Source of the DNA: Kiritimatiellia bacterium | GTDB lineage: Bacteria > Verrucomicrobiota > Kiritimatiellia > RFP12 > UBA1067 | Assembly: GCA_017450695.1 (NCBI GenBank) | Contig: JAFSTA010000097.1 | Coordinates: forward strand, 1 to 42,257 | Direction of reading: 5' to 3' | Length of the DNA stretch: 42,257 nt | Shown here: positions 31,855 to 39,940 of the stretch, piece after piece | How positions within the stretch are numbered: position 1 is the stretch's first letter | Layout of the letters: each line of letters starts with the position of its first letter | Notes under the pieces: model-generated | The model's database searches: none | What the model was told of the DNA's origin: nothing | What the model saw: only the letters and a program-made list of their open reading frames with translations | Position numbers and translations under genes: made by a program

Positions 31855-32988
31855 CTAACGCGCGTCGGCAAGTGCGAACAGGGAGGCGGAGTAGAGTCTG
31901 CCGCCGATTTCACCCCAGGTGTCTTCCTTGGCGTTCGGATGCCAGAACTTGCGGACGGTGTCGGCTTCTCTCCCTTCCCCTGCGGCGCGGAAGGCGATGA
32001 CCTTCGCGTAGTCGCGGTAACTGTCCGCTGGCTTTCCTTCGCCGTTCGCGGAGGAGAGTTCTCGGATGATCCGCTTGCCCAGCAGGGGAAGTCCGTCAAA
32101 GGAGGCGCCTGCGGTCAGGAGCGCGTGCGCGGTCAGCGCGCGCAGACTCTCGGAACGGGAAATTTGTCCGCCGCGATGATAGACCACCGTGCCGTTGTCG
32201 TGCATGACATCGCGGAGCCAGCGCAGTCCCTTTCGCAGCGGGAGGCGGGCCGCGGCGACGCCCTGTCTCTCGGCGAGGGAAAGTGCGCGGACGTTCCATG
32301 CGGTCAAGGCCGTGTTCCCTTGCGACCCGTCCTCGTAATCCCATCCGCCAGACTGCGTCTGTTCGTCCGCGATTCGGGTGACCGCCTTTTCGAGCGCGGG
32401 GCGCAGACCGTCATGCGTCGGCAACAGCGCGGCGAGGGCGAACGCCGTGATGGACTGGTTATAGGACTGCACACGACCTTTCTGCCCGAACGAGCCGTCC
32501 TCCTGCTGCATCGAAACGAGGGCGCGGCACGCCGCGTGAACGGAGTCGGACGACGGGTCGCGGGAGGCGAGCGCCAATGCGGCCAGGGCGGTCAGGGCTG
32601 GACGGTATGCCTCGTACCCGCCGGCGCGAACCGGCGACCAGCTGCCGTCCTGTTCCTGAAGGGATGCGATCCAATCGAGGTCATTTGAAACCGCGGGAGT
32701 CCGATCTGCGGACTTCCAGAGAAGCGATGCGGCCAATCCGAGGAGAAGGAGGAGAATGGCCGCGCGGGACATCCATTTCCGAAACCGGTACGAACTGAAC
32801 GCGGAGGGAAGGAAACTGCGAGAAGGCGTCACGTCACGCTCCGCTTCGACCTTCACGGCGGCAAGGATCCGGTCGGTCAGTTGCGGCGATGCGGCGGGTA
32901 GGGGAAGCGAGCGAAGGCGGGCGACGAGGGAGAGGAAATCCTCTCTGTCGCAAGGGGAAAACTCATTCAGGTGTTCGCTGATCGTCAT
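31855..32988 (-). CDS. Probable anti-sigma factor with alpha/alpha-toroid (squalene-cyclase/prenyltransferase-repeat) ectodomain
   Basis: The 377-residue protein has a short cytoplasmic N-terminus (residues 1-70), one membrane segment (about 75-95, AAILLLLLGLAASLLW) and an exterior part built of repeats: DWIASLQEQDGSW, ALVSMQQEDGSFGQ, ADEQTQSGGWDYEDGS and a VMHDNGTVVY repeat. QxxDGSW repeats are typical of squalene-cyclase/prenyltransferase toroids; no DxDD catalytic motif is seen, so a binding or sensing role is likelier than catalysis. Its ATG overlaps the sigma-factor TGA (ATGA), so translation is coupled, and location and topology fit an anti-sigma factor. This function is inference; a recognisable anti-sigma zinc motif (HxxxCxxC) is absent. 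Confidence 0.72.
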   Translation of the reverse strand: MTISEHLNEFSPCDREDFLSLVARLRSLPLPAASPQLTDRILAAVKVEAERDVTPSRSFLPSAFSSYRFRKWMSRAAILLLLLGLAASLLWKSADRTPAVSNDLDWIASLQEQDGSWSPVRAGGYEAYRPALTALAALALASRDPSSDSVHAACRALVSMQQEDGSFGQKGRVQSYNQSITAFALAALLPTHDGLRPALEKAVTRIADEQTQSGGWDYEDGSQGNTALTAWNVRALSLAERQGVAAARLPLRKGLRWLRDVMHDNGTVVYHRGGQISRSESLRALTAHALLTAGASFDGLPLLGKRIIRELSSANGEGKPADSYRDYAKVIAFRAAGEGREADTVRKFWHPNAKEDTWGEIGGRLYSASLFALADAR

Positions 32989-33578
32989 TTCTTCTTTCCT
33001 TTCACCGGAGTGCCGGATTCGTCGTTCTTTAAAAACTCCCGCATTCTCCCGAGGGCGTGAAACATGCGCGATTTCACGGTTCCCTCCGGGATTCCCAGAA
33101 TGCGCCCGATCTCCGCGTAGGGGCGTTCCTCGAAGACGCCCAGCACGACGACCTGCCGCAATCCGTCGGGGAGTGTTTCCAGCAAACGCAACACGTCCTG
33201 CCGATTTTCCACATGCTGGGTGTCGGAGACATCCTGCTGTACCGGCGCGTCGATCGGTTCCTCCGGCATGGGTACTTCACCCCGTTCCCGACGTTTCCGT
33301 TTTCGCAACTCGTCGAGCCAGACCTGCCGGGCGACAAGCAACAGGAACGTCGTGAACTTGGCGGAGACCACATACCGGTTGCGATACCGGAAAATCCGCA
33401 AGAAGGTTTGCTGCACCAAATCCTCTCCGTCGTATTGAACGCCGGAACGGACGAAATAGTTCAAGAGGTTTTGCTGATGACGGGAAACCAGTACCGCGAA
33501 GGCATCCTGGTCGTTCTGTTCGCGAACGCGCACCATCAGGTCCTCGTCGGAGATGGCAGGATCTGCGTCTCGCGTCAT
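32985..33578 (-). CDS. ECF-type RNA polymerase sigma factor
   Basis: The 197-residue product has region 2 (DQDAFAVLVSRHQQNLLNYF; EDLVQQTFLRIFRYRNRY; FTTFLLLVARQVWLDELRKRKRR) and region 4 (LRLLETLPDGLRQVVVLGVFEERPYAEIGRILGIPEGTVKSRMFHALGRMREFL), joined by a short acidic linker, without region 1 or 3. ATG 33578 overlaps the cvpA stop (ATGA) and has GGAAGC upstream; the longer open frame beyond it reads through cvpA in another frame. It directs polymerase to envelope or stress promoters and is probably held by the membrane protein translated next. Confidence 0.92.
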   Translation of the reverse strand: MTRDADPAISDEDLMVRVREQNDQDAFAVLVSRHQQNLLNYFVRSGVQYDGEDLVQQTFLRIFRYRNRYVVSAKFTTFLLLVARQVWLDELRKRKRRERGEVPMPEEPIDAPVQQDVSDTQHVENRQDVLRLLETLPDGLRQVVVLGVFEERPYAEIGRILGIPEGTVKSRMFHALGRMREFLKNDESGTPVKGKKK

Positions 33579-34087
33579 GGTTGCTTCCGGAGCGCGGGAT
33601 GGTTCTCCAGCGGTTTGACCCATTGGGAAATGGTATCGAGGAGAGAGGAGGTGTTCGCGATCGTTCCGGTGACGGGCTGGTGCGGGGTGATCCATCCCAG
33701 CGAGCAGAGGATCGAGAGAATGACCAATGCTTTCGCCCCGCCGATCACGCCGCCCAGAATCGCGTCGAACGGCTGGGGAACGACGAAGCGGATGATCTTG
33801 CGCAGAATATGGCTCGTCAGGATCCCGACCGAGATACAAGCCACGGTGATCAGCACGAACCCCGCGAGCTGGTTCGCGAACTGAGACGCCCCAAGCAACT
33901 GGCTTTCCTGCGCCCACGTGGAGAGGGGCGCGGAACCGAAATAGGCGGTCAGGGCGGCAGCGCCCAATCCCAGCAGACGTCCGATCTCGCCGGAACAACC
34001 GTGCTTGAATCCCAGCACGATCAGCACGAGGATTCCGCCGAGAATCAGATAGTCAAGCCCCTGTAGCGAATGCAAGAATGTGTCCAT
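33575..34087 (-). CDS. CvpA-family membrane protein
   Basis: The 170-residue product has four hydrophobic segments (LDYLILGGILVLIVLGFKHG; GRLLGLGAAALTAYFG; FANQLAGFVLITVACISVGILT; FDAILGGVIGGAKALVILSILCSLGW) and the CvpA signature of a Gly-rich third-fourth pair (PFDAILGGVIGGAKAL). CvpA proteins are inner-membrane proteins linked to colicin V production, purF and envelope stress or bile resistance in enteric bacteria. The start is 15 nt after the TPR lipoprotein stop, and the end overlaps the sigma ATG, placing it inside an envelope-stress operon. Its molecular role is not known. Confidence 0.82.
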   Translation of the reverse strand: MDTFLHSLQGLDYLILGGILVLIVLGFKHGCSGEIGRLLGLGAAALTAYFGSAPLSTWAQESQLLGASQFANQLAGFVLITVACISVGILTSHILRKIIRFVVPQPFDAILGGVIGGAKALVILSILCSLGWITPHQPVTGTIANTSSLLDTISQWVKPLENHPALRKQP

Positions 34088-34102
34088 GTAAGCCCGGCCC
34101 GA

Positions 34103-35260
34103 TTAGAGAGATTTCAACCATTTCTCGAAGGTTTCGTCCTTCGATCCGGACTTGAGCAGGGAAAGGTAGAAGTTCCCGTATGCGCGCGCCTCCGGAATTT
34201 TTTTTTGCAGATGGTAAAGGGAGGAGATCTGCTTCAGCGTTTCCGGACTGAACGGAGAGCGGGCGATGGCCGTGTTCAGAATCGCTTCCGCCTCCTCGTA
34301 CCGTTTCAGCTGGATCGCCAGCGTCGCGGATCGCAGATAGCAGTCCTGGTGGGTGGGCTGCAGTCGCGAAGCGCGCCGGAAAGACTCCAGCGCCTCCGCC
34401 TTCAGTCCTTGACGGGTGTAGGCGACACCCAGACCGAACTGTGCAGTGAACGCTCCGGCGTACTGGTTGATCGCGCCCTTGAAATGCTTGATCGCCTCGT
34501 TGTACTTGCGCGTGGCGAGAGCTTCACTTCCCAGCTCGATCAGCTTTTCAGCCTTCGCCTTCGCGGCGGCGTCCGGCTTTTCGACGGGACGGGCGTTCCG
34601 GGCGATCACGCCCTCCAGCTGCTTGATTTTCTGTTCCGCCTTCCCGTAGTGGGGATCGTTCTGGTCGCAAAGGTGGGTGAAGAGTTTGAACTGATCCAAC
34701 GCCTCTTCGTAGAGCCGGTATTGGTCACGGTAGAGTGTCCCGAGGTTGTAATAGGTCGGGGCATATTTGGGATCGATCTTCTGCGCGTTCAGCAGGTGCA
34801 GCCGGTACTGGGGAAAATTGTGCTTCGAATACTCGACTCGTGCGATTCCGTTCAGCACCGCCGCGCGGGATTCGGGCGTGGCGAGATTCGTATTGTACGC
34901 CTGCCGGAAGTAACGCTGCGCCTCGTCGAACTTCTGTTCATGGAAAGCGATCTCCCCCAACCCGGCAAGGGCTTCGCCGTGTCCGGGTTTGTAGCTCAAC
35001 GCTTCCTTGTAGGCATCCGTCGCCTTCGCAAGTTCCCCCAACTGCAGGTAGGAGCTTCCGAGCAGGGTGCAGGCTTCGACCGAGTTCGGAATCAGTTCGC
35101 TCGCTTTCGCGAGCTTGGCGGCAGCTTCCGAAAAGTTCCGGACTTTGTACGCCGCGATTCCGTCCGAAAGACACTGCTGACCGGACTGACCCGATCCGCA
35201 CCCGGTCAACACGAGACAGACGGCGATGATAGAAAAACAACCCAAAATAATCTTGTTCAT
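34103..35260 (-). CDS. TPR-repeat lipoprotein
   Basis: The 385-residue product begins MNKIILGCFSIIAVCLVLTGCG, a lipoprotein signal with lipobox LTGC and Cys21. At least six tetratricopeptide repeats follow, e.g. ACTLLGSSYLQLGELAKATDAYKEALSYKP, ALAGLGEIAFHEQKFDEAQRYFRQAY, TYYNLGTLYRDQYRLYEEALDQFK, KYNEAIKHFKGAINQYAGAF and LGVAYTRQGLKAEALESFRRASRLQP. TPRs mediate protein contacts, so it is probably an outer-membrane or periplasmic scaffold. It leads the cvpA-sigma-toroid operon. AAGGAT precedes the ATG and TATACT at 35318-35313 may be its -10. Partner unknown. Confidence 0.87.
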   Translation of the reverse strand: MNKIILGCFSIIAVCLVLTGCGSGQSGQQCLSDGIAAYKVRNFSEAAAKLAKASELIPNSVEACTLLGSSYLQLGELAKATDAYKEALSYKPGHGEALAGLGEIAFHEQKFDEAQRYFRQAYNTNLATPESRAAVLNGIARVEYSKHNFPQYRLHLLNAQKIDPKYAPTYYNLGTLYRDQYRLYEEALDQFKLFTHLCDQNDPHYGKAEQKIKQLEGVIARNARPVEKPDAAAKAKAEKLIELGSEALATRKYNEAIKHFKGAINQYAGAFTAQFGLGVAYTRQGLKAEALESFRRASRLQPTHQDCYLRSATLAIQLKRYEEAEAILNTAIARSPFSPETLKQISSLYHLQKKIPEARAYGNFYLSLLKSGSKDETFEKWLKSL

Positions 35261-35414
35261 GTCGCGAAGATCCTTCTACGAGTTCGGAAACACAATCGCA
35301 AAAAACAAAAACAGTATAACCTTTTTCGAGGAGAAAGAAAAGGGGAAAATGGGAGCGACAGGGAGAATCGCGCCGTTCCCGACGCGGCACAGAACAGGAA
35401 CGGCGGGCTATCCG

Positions 35415-36483: not shown

Positions 36484-36779
36484 GACGCGCTCCGTCGCGT
36501 CCGTTTTTTTCGCTGCCTCGTCAATTTAACCATTTCACCATTTAAAGCGTAGCGATTTATTTTTTCCCCCGCGGGGGAGGGACGCTCTTGCCGCGTCCAT
36601 TTTTTTCGTTGCCTCGTCAATTTAACCATTTCACCATTAAAAGCGCAGCGATTTAATTTTTCCCTGCGGGAGGGACGCGCTCCGTCGCGTCCGTTTTTTT
36701 CGCTGCCTCGTCAATTTAACCATTTCACCGTTTAAAGCGTAGCGATTTAATTTTTCCCCGCGGGGCGCGTCCCTCCCGA
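36484..36779. repeat. Tandem array of three ~95-bp repeat units
   Basis: Units begin at 36484, 36581 and 36674 (spacing 97 and 93). Each has GACGCGctccgtCGCGTC or a decayed form, a T-run with TCGCTGCCTCG, then TCAATTTAACCATTTCACC, AAAGCG(T/C)AGCGATTTA, a T-run and a CCCCGCGGGG-like palindrome. Relatives are at 13783-13833 and 29997-30115. The flanking stretches 36387-36483 and 36780-36802 hold no gene. Confidence 0.85.
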
Positions 36780-36802: not shown

Positions 36803-37138
36803 TCAATTCCAGAAGGTGTCGTTTTCGGCGACGAGCATCCTCGCGTGGCGGATGGAGAGGATATGCACCTCGTCTCCTACGGACTCGTACACGATTCGGT
36901 ATGGTGAGCAGATCAGTTGCCGAAGGCGGTCGGCGTTCGCGGGGATGGACTGGAAACAGACCACGGGAATGACGGTGCCAAGATTGGGAAATGTGGCAAG
37001 CCGACTGGCATGGCTGTCTATTTTTGTTTTCCAGCGAGCGGCATCCAGCGACGAAACTTCGATCCTTACCGTGTTGAGAACATTTGCGAGGAGGATCCTA
37101 GCGTGCGGCGACCACTTGAGCGTCATGGCATTCTTCAT
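36803..37138 (-). CDS. ParE/RelE-superfamily toxin
   Basis: The 111-residue product has the ParE/RelE fold pattern: LKWSPHARILLANVLNTV, ARLATFPNLGTVIP, LRQLICSPYRIVYESVGDEVHILSIRHARM. The conserved RIVY and HILSIRHARM segments near the C-terminus are typical of ParE-like plasmid stabilisation toxins, which inhibit gyrase, while RelE relatives cut mRNA in the ribosome; which applies here cannot be read. The gene overlaps the antitoxin by about 41 nt, antitoxin first, as in canonical type II modules. An internal ATG at 37126 is an alternative start. Confidence 0.82.
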   Translation of the reverse strand: MKNAMTLKWSPHARILLANVLNTVRIEVSSLDAARWKTKIDSHASRLATFPNLGTVIPVVCFQSIPANADRLRQLICSPYRIVYESVGDEVHILSIRHARMLVAENDTFWN

Positions 37139-37454
37139 CGCGCATCCACCCTTGAATCATCTCGTCCATCTCGCGCATGACTTGCTCATGCGGTATCCCC
37201 TTGCCTTCGGCGAATTCGCGACGGGAGATTTCGATGTCGCGGGAGAGTTCCATCCGGTCGAAGAGCGCGTCCATCGACTCGGCATCGACGAGGTAGGAGG
37301 CTGCGCGGCCGTTTTGGGTGATGAGGATGGGGCGGTGCGTCTCGCGGACGCGGTTGATGTACGAGGAAAGGTTGTTGCGGCACTCCGAGAACGGTACGAC
37401 ATCCTCGGACGGACGGCAGCGGCGAATCGGCAGATCACAAACTTCTGGCATCAT
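37098..37454 (-). CDS. Phd/YefM-family antitoxin
   Basis: The 118-residue protein carries the Phd/YefM DNA-binding fold: VVPFSECRNNLSSYINRVRETHRPILITQNGRAASYLVDAESMDAL. Its C-terminal part (SRDIEISRREFAEGKGIPHEQVMREMDEMI) should be the toxin-binding helix. Phd proteins bind toxin and repress their own promoter, often cooperatively with the toxin. It precedes and overlaps the toxin gene. A possible start two codons in from the 5' end (MMPEV) has no strong ribosome site. Confidence 0.85.
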   Translation of the reverse strand: MMPEVCDLPIRRCRPSEDVVPFSECRNNLSSYINRVRETHRPILITQNGRAASYLVDAESMDALFDRMELSRDIEISRREFAEGKGIPHEQVMREMDEMIQGWMRDEECHDAQVVAAR

Positions 37455-38351: not shown

Positions 38352-38726
38352 ATGGGAAATCGGGGAGAACTGGAAGACTTTTTTCGAGGATTTGGTGCAT
38401 TGTCCGACAAACGGGGGATGACCCCCAGTCAAGCTGCTGCTCTGTTTATGAGGTATCTCGCTTACGAGAAAGACTTAAAAGATGGTAAATCGCTAGACGA
38501 CTCTGGCTGGATGTTTTCCAAGTGGAACTTACCGCCTGGATTTAGTTCTGGAGGTCCCACTACCGTCAAGATACCGGATGATTATGTGGAGTGTGCTGAG
38601 TTCTGGAATAAATCTTCAGACGGTCGTGTGCGGGTATCAGAGCAGGGAATCCGTTACATCAAATGCAACTGGGATTTCTTTGGGAAATACTGCGAGACTT
38701 GCGATTCTGCGGGTGATAATTCGTGA
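38352..38726 (+). CDS. Unknown protein, 124 aa
   Basis: ATG 38352 is preferred to the overlapping ATG at 38322 because AAGGA (38340-38344) is 7 nt before it. The product has a helical N-terminus (MGNRGELEDFFRGFGALSDK; GMTPSQAAALFMRYLAYEKD) and a C-terminal part with two or three Cys (YIKCNWDFFGKYCETCDS). No signal peptide or known domain is recognised. Its stop overlaps the GTG that could open the SUMF1 frame, and the SUMF1 ribosome site is immediately downstream, so it is likely co-transcribed. Base composition is AT-rich like the gene before it. Confidence 0.6.
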   Translation: MGNRGELEDFFRGFGALSDKRGMTPSQAAALFMRYLAYEKDLKDGKSLDDSGWMFSKWNLPPGFSSGGPTTVKIPDDYVECAEFWNKSSDGRVRVSEQGIRYIKCNWDFFGKYCETCDSAGDNS

Positions 38727-38749
38727 ACGAACAAAGGAGAACAACGGAA

Positions 38750-39940
38750 ATGAGAACGAGTGATTGGATGAGGAGAGTGGCTGGTATGGCGGTCGCGGCG
38801 GCTGTCGTGGTCGGCGCGTGGACGGCGGATGCCCAGCAGATCAAGAACGTGACGGCGAGGCAGCGGTTTCCGTGGAACGGGAAGGTCGATATCTCGTATG
38901 AGGTGGTCGGAACTATCTCGTCGGTTTCGTCGGTCGAGATCAGCATGACGGACAAGTCGACGGGGCAAGTGTATCCGGCTCTTGCGTCCTCCCTTTCGGG
39001 CGACACAGGGACTGGGGTGGGTGTCCACAAGGCTGTTTGGGATCTCACCGCGCAGGGGATTGAACTGCGGTCGCAGAGTGCTGTTATTTCCGTTGAATAC
39101 AATCCTCTCTATCTTGTGATCGATCTCTCCGGCGGAACGTCCACGTTGAGTTATCCGGTGACATATCTTGACGCGGAGCCGAGCGGCGGGTTTAACATTG
39201 ATGCGTACAAGACAACAAAACTAGTACTGCGGAAGATTTCCGCTGGAATATTCATCATGGGCGATGACCAGACGAACGAGTTCCACCGTGTGATGCTGAG
39301 TCAGCCGTTCTACATCGGCATTTTCGAGGTGACACAAAAGCAGTATCAATTGGTGATGGGGAGCAATCCGTCTTACTACAAAGGCAACATGCGCCCCGTG
39401 GAACAAGTCTCGTATGATATGATCCGCGGTTCCTCGGAGGGGGCGAAATGGCCGTCGTTCTCCGCCGTCGATTCGGACTCGTTCCTCGGCAGGCTCCGCG
39501 CACGGACGGGGTTGGAGTTTGACCTGCCGACGGAGGCGCAGTGGGAGTACGCTTGTCGTGCGGGTACGACGAGTGCCTATAACAACGGCGGTAGCGCGGG
39601 GAATGACCTGAAGTTGCTGGGGCGGTATGACGGCAACAGATCCGACGGGAAGGGCGGGTATTCGCAGCACACGACGGTCGGTTCCTATCAGCCGAACGCG
39701 TGGGGACTGTATGACATGCACGGGAACGAGTGTGAATGGTGCTTGGACTGGTACGGGACGCTGGCGTACGGGACGGATCCGAAGGGGGCTTCCTCGGGGT
39801 TGAAACGGGTGATTCGCGGCGGCAGCTGGAACCACGGCAGAACAACAGACTGTACTTCGCATAATCGTGGCGCTCTTACCTCGTCTGTCGTGAATAGCCT
39901 TTACGGTGGCATTCGCCTGGCCAAAACCCTGTCCAACTAA
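38750..39940 (+). CDS. Secreted SUMF1 (formylglycine-generating-enzyme-like) protein
   Basis: The 396-residue product has a signal peptide (MAVAAAVVVGAWTADAQQ), an Ig-like N-terminal domain (TARQRFPWNGKVDISYEVVG) that is a familiar start in Kiritimatiellota surface proteins, and a C-terminal SUMF1 domain: FIMGDDQTNEFHRVMLSQPFYIGIFEVTQKQY, LPTEAQWEYACRAGTT, WGLYDMHGNECEWCLDW, RVIRGGSWNHGRTTDCTSHNRG. The domain is that of enzymes converting sulfatase Cys to formylglycine, and of other oxidoreductases such as EgtB and PvdO. Only one Cys lies in the RGGSW...C region, where copper-dependent FGE uses two, so it probably lacks FGE activity. AAAGGAG lies 10 nt before ATG 38750; a GTG at 38723 is possible. 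Confidence 0.85.
   Translation: MRTSDWMRRVAGMAVAAAVVVGAWTADAQQIKNVTARQRFPWNGKVDISYEVVGTISSVSSVEISMTDKSTGQVYPALASSLSGDTGTGVGVHKAVWDLTAQGIELRSQSAVISVEYNPLYLVIDLSGGTSTLSYPVTYLDAEPSGGFNIDAYKTTKLVLRKISAGIFIMGDDQTNEFHRVMLSQPFYIGIFEVTQKQYQLVMGSNPSYYKGNMRPVEQVSYDMIRGSSEGAKWPSFSAVDSDSFLGRLRARTGLEFDLPTEAQWEYACRAGTTSAYNNGGSAGNDLKLLGRYDGNRSDGKGGYSQHTTVGSYQPNAWGLYDMHGNECEWCLDWYGTLAYGTDPKGASSGLKRVIRGGSWNHGRTTDCTSHNRGALTSSVVNSLYGGIRLAKTLSN

Follow-up and report, generated by a model that had tools for sequence, protein, structure and literature searches.

The window analysed here, a stretch of 42,257 nucleotides, comes from a rumen-type Kiritimatiellae bacterium; its relatives belong to the Kiritimatiellae, several of them being of rumen origin. 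On its minus strand lie four genes, encoding in this order a TPR lipoprotein, a CvpA protein, an ECF sigma factor and a toroid protein with a single transmembrane helix. The first gene (34103..35260) encodes a lipoprotein of 385 aa, with a lipobox (LTGC) at its start and many TPRs detected with Pfam, and the second (33575..34087) a 170-aa membrane protein that belongs to the CvpA family, as PF02674 (Colicin_V) scores 72.6 bits against a cut-off of 29.3. The product of the third gene (32985..33578) is an ECF sigma factor of 197 aa, in which the Pfam models for sigma2 (Sigma70_r2) and sigma4 (Sigma70_r4_2) are both over their cut-offs and sigma1.1 and sigma3 are lacking, its closest solved relative being SigW (5wuq). 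The fourth gene (31855..32988) encodes a membrane anti-sigma factor candidate of 377 aa with a toroid ectodomain, as judged from Pfam, AlphaFold2 (AF2) and orthologue alignment, and residues 93–258 of this protein match SQHop_cyclase_C/Prenyltrans in Pfam. A 15-nt gap separates the TPR and CvpA genes, and both the CvpA/sigma and the sigma/toroid junctions are ATGA, so that the open reading frames and their coordinates bear out the gene set and spacing proposed earlier from the letters alone (the sequence-only reading).

A recurring promoter recognised by the sigma factor, which that reading had proposed to look for, also upstream of the operon, was not found with two generic forms of the ECF consensus, these being no better upstream of the operon or of the sigma gene than in shuffled sequences. 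A candidate housekeeping-like -10 box (TATACT), with a weak -35, can be read upstream of the TPR gene (35313..35318, minus strand), and TTGAAA-17-TATACT is present in the upstream regions of L040 and L041; the sigma70-like score upstream of the operon is barely above that of shuffles. Since the readable -10 is of the housekeeping type and no generic ECF promoter is enriched, autoregulation finds no support. An enrichment of 7-mers was seen in the promoter comparison, among sequences that are related.

Other features were noted elsewhere in the window. An intergenic repeat of 86 nt is present in three tandem copies at 36484–36759, their starts spaced by 96 and 94. A genome-wide count of its core, allowing up to two mismatches, gave 31 occurrences, and 0 for the reversed control, so that this repeat constitutes a dispersed family. 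A ParE-type toxin gene and an overlapping gene for a Phd/YefM-type antitoxin (Pfam) are found at 36803–37454 on the minus strand, and a protein with an FGE-sulfatase domain (PF03781) is encoded at 38723–39940 on the plus strand.

Conservation of the sigma–toroid pair and of its upstream genes

We searched 144 relatives for the toroid protein, and a search for the sigma factor in the same set led to 96 genomes at E ≤ 1e-20. The neighbourhoods of these loci were scanned with profiles built in this analysis, and linkage was counted over the 79 loci with a sigma orthologue and at least 500 bases downstream. The toroid protein was detected downstream of sigma in 68 of the 79 at E ≤ 1e-3 and in 76 at E ≤ 0.01, and either the protein or a recognisable shortened form of it in 78, the exception being L148; some of the counted loci had gone into the toroid profile, and 14 into that for the remnants, so that the figures characterise this set and do not amount to an independent test. 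The pair is present in all eight family-level groups having a sigma orthologue and room downstream, and the toroid gene mostly overlaps the sigma stop codon or directly adjoins it, some loci having between tens and a few hundred bases in between. When the search was extended to the whole phylum, most of the best toroid hits were preceded by an orthologous sigma factor, and the pair was met once in another class (L182). No relative of the toroid, CvpA or TPR proteins was detected within the 1.5-kb flanks of the remaining ECF loci in the window's genome (L001, L003–L008). The distances between sigma proteins and those between toroid proteins show a correlation of 0.78, with none of 2000 permutations as high, a value that vertical descent alone could produce.

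Chance adjacency was rejected, given that order and spacing are kept across many genomes, and a conserved wider neighbourhood was rejected as well, the ComF and DciA-like genes turning up in the nearest relative, L039, and in none of the others. In one locus, L052, an insertion of around 2.4 kb separates the sigma gene from the toroid gene, and second toroid-like matches lie on the opposite strand near the pair in L058 (4983–5510) and L064 (5321–5770).

In the window's family, 58 loci extend far enough upstream of the sigma gene; a TPR orthologue was found there in 53 of them, CvpA in 49, and both in 48, and neither was found in any of the 24 loci outside this family. The proposed conservation of the four-gene order holds, in consequence, inside the family and fails beyond it, and the deep unit consists of sigma and toroid, the upstream genes being confined to one family. 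It is rather unlikely that the whole four-gene set works as one signalling complex, in which the TPR lipoprotein and CvpA would be obligate and would hold or release the anti-sigma factor in an RseB-like manner. The tight coupling, the order kept within the family and the persistence of TPR and CvpA in some genera with an eroded toroid speak for such a complex, but their absence from upstream positions outside the family, together with five loci of the family itself (L045, L048, L054, L055 and L057) that have the pair without TPR and CvpA, indicates that these two proteins are not obligate. A literature search for a link between CvpA and sigma factors returned nothing direct.

A reduced segment of a probable anti-sigma factor

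The toroid orthologues of other families carry a zinc-type anti-sigma domain at their N-terminus. The pattern C...HxxxCxxC (C11, H36, C40 and C43) is invariant in 15 zinc-type orthologues, which had been selected for carrying HxxxCxxC; a zf-HC2 match at E ≤ 0.05 is present in 11 of these sequences, and one over the cut-off in L060, L064 and L065. A profile of the zinc-type orthologues matches the solved structures of RslA (3hug, E 7e-9), RsiW (5wuq, E 2e-6) and ChrR (2q1z, E 0.0025). HxxxCxxC is missing from the window protein and from all 58 loci of its family that were tested, so that the zinc motif of class I zinc anti-sigma (ZAS) domains, HxxxCxxC with an upstream Cys/His, is found in the orthologues of other families and not in the window. 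The N-terminus of window-type proteins, of around 50 residues, aligns with the second half of the zinc anti-sigma profile (hhalign 97.4%, E 1e-11, 46 columns), which places the cytoplasmic segment of the window protein (residues 1–52; 32833..32988, minus strand) among class I ZAS domains by homology, and in the full-length alignment the similarity between window-type and zinc-type proteins continues through the transmembrane helix and the toroid. AF2 models two main helices in this segment, at residues 12–26 and 37–51, with moderate confidence (block pLDDT 63–78), and not the four of a class I domain; four N-terminal helices were modelled, at low confidence, in the zinc-type orthologue P0005.

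As judged from these alignments, the window protein derives by reduction from a zinc-type one, helices 1–2 and the zinc site having been lost and helices 3 and 4 kept. The missing zinc motif, noted by the sequence-only reading, is thus a likely derived loss and not the mark of a different kind of protein, and, since around 44% of class I anti-sigma domains are without it (PMC7406223), the lack of it does not speak against a function. The proposal of the same reading, that the product of the last gene combines a candidate anti-sigma function with a toroid ectodomain, was strengthened by the zinc anti-sigma homology of the orthologues and by the class-wide linkage to sigma. An anti-sigma role of the toroid protein is very probable, and from its relationships we infer inhibition of the sigma factor. 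In class I domains, structures and coevolution assign the contact with sigma2 to helix 4 and that with sigma4 to helix 1 (PMC7406223), and helix 1 is among the helices absent from the window segment, which counts against inhibition.

The reduction has gone to different lengths. When mapped onto a tree built from 63 sigma proteins, the zinc site must have switched between present and absent at least seven times; the topology has weak and open forks and does not give the direction of change. These changes are likely losses, because the regain of four ligands is unlikely. When the remaining pieces were assigned to helices by reading alignments, L170 and L173 were seen to retain a short helix 3 plus helix 4, L184 and L190 hardly more than helix 4, and certain genera of the window's family, with proteins of around 140–190 aa in total, just the portion for helix 3 and a remnant of the toroid. 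In many members of the family the toroid protein is cut to around 130–225 aa overall, its position behind the sigma gene persisting. L127, L142, L147, L153 and similar loci encode a remnant of around 140–190 aa with the transmembrane helix and a single QW-like motif, and TPR, mostly together with CvpA, is still found ahead of their sigma gene. The erosion of the toroid and of helix 4 in some members of the family implies that neither is essential there.

Such reduction, with its repeated loss of zinc site and helices and its extreme in L127 and similar loci, could also mean that the reduced members, that of the window included, no longer inhibit sigma, being either vestigial linked genes or tethers that activate or localise it. 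We consider this improbable, as H6, E9, R40 and the helix 3–helix 4 pattern are conserved in window-type proteins at 22–44% identity, and the overlap of their start codons with the stop codon of sigma has been kept. A broader and tentative proposal, to which we give somewhat less than an even chance, is that throughout the class four-helix zinc domains were repeatedly pared to a two-helix CnrY-like minimum, with an enzyme-derived toroid as the ligand sensor; if this is true, the pared-down family shows how minimal anti-sigma domains can arise. The natural series from the complete zinc domain to the minimal segment makes the parts needed for inhibition testable.

The toroid ectodomain, the proposed mechanism and known systems

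The single transmembrane helix spans residues 69–91 (32716..32784, minus strand) in the AF2 model, and is also apparent in the hydropathy of the orthologues. As R/K residues lie at its N-terminal side, the positive-inside rule predicts an internal N-terminus and a toroid outside the cell membrane. The ectodomain (residues 96–377; 31858..32703, minus strand) was modelled as a confident alpha/alpha toroid, with block pLDDT mostly of 88–98 (AF2), in agreement with the fold that had been anticipated for these residues. Drimenyl diphosphate synthase (Z 25.5), AprG (Z 23.7) and squalene-hopene cyclase (Z 23.6) are among its structural matches, as are sugar epimerases; a shared fold by itself shows no function. 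The motifs DxDD, DCT and CGEQ are all absent from the window protein, which, with a single toroid in the model, has neither the DxDD nor the two-domain architecture of squalene/oxidosqualene cyclases, and NCBIfam cyclase models reach 33–37 bits on it versus cut-offs of 323–851. Residues Y176, N177, Y324 and R325 are among the polar and aromatic ones invariant across 23 orthologues, and the location of such residues near helix starts is compatible with a binding pocket. Given the absence of DxDD, the ectodomain probably serves in binding and not in catalysis. Although the fold is common to cyclases, epimerases and GH76, and the invariant residues would suit a kept pocket, it is very improbable that the protein is a terpenoid- or sugar-active enzyme co-encoded with a sigma factor controlling its expression, and no anti-sigma factor, given the zinc anti-sigma domain of its orthologues, the lack of cyclase motifs and the many family members that keep the place behind the sigma gene with the toroid cut down.

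We favour, with a probability of about 80%, a sigma/anti-sigma pair in which the toroid protein holds the sigma factor inactive and its ectodomain receives the signal that releases it. This reading starts from the observed gene order, its conservation and the homology of the anti-sigma segment, together with the toroid fold as modelled. The ECF sigma factor would be kept inactive at the inner membrane by the short two-helix cytoplasmic segment, whose helices 3 and 4 would derive from the zinc anti-sigma domain, helix 4 being the sigma2 binder in related proteins. The predicted extracytoplasmic ring, a putative non-cyclase relative of squalene cyclase toroids, may have a small molecule, an envelope component or a partner as its ligand. 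A signal received there would lead to sigma release, either by regulated proteolysis or by a change of conformation. The TPR lipoprotein and CvpA would have joined the operon of the pair in the window's family, and may add or relay envelope signals.

The anti-sigma principle is already known. None of the open papers searched (anti-sigma plus squalene cyclase/prenyltransferase) described an anti-sigma factor that senses through a toroid, although such a case may have been published elsewhere. The pair would provide a defined envelope signalling system for a largely uncultured bacterial class, and puts the alpha/alpha toroid forward as a possible sensor domain for anti-sigma factors.

Like RsiW and RslA (class I ZAS), the candidate is encoded directly after an ECF sigma gene and combines an N-terminal cytoplasmic anti-sigma segment, one transmembrane helix and a predicted extracytoplasmic domain, and its orthologues keep C...HxxxCxxC; it differs from them in the lack of helices 1–2 and the zinc site and in having a squalene-cyclase-like toroid as ectodomain. 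The short two-helix cytoplasmic segment, here a predicted monomer, resembles that of CnrY from the class II CnrH/CnrY system, in which two helices embrace sigma2 and sigma4 (PMC4598750), but by alignment it descends from a class I domain, and the likeness is one of helix layout. As in RpoE/RseA/RseB, a membrane anti-sigma factor, here a candidate, shares an operon with further envelope proteins, although none of the four genes is RseB-like and the partners here are a TPR lipoprotein and CvpA. Finally, the alpha/alpha toroid and its QW motifs are shared with squalene-hopene cyclase and drimenyl diphosphate synthase (Z 23–25, around 18% identity), whereas the toroid of the window is single, membrane tethered, probably outside the cell membrane and devoid of DxDD.
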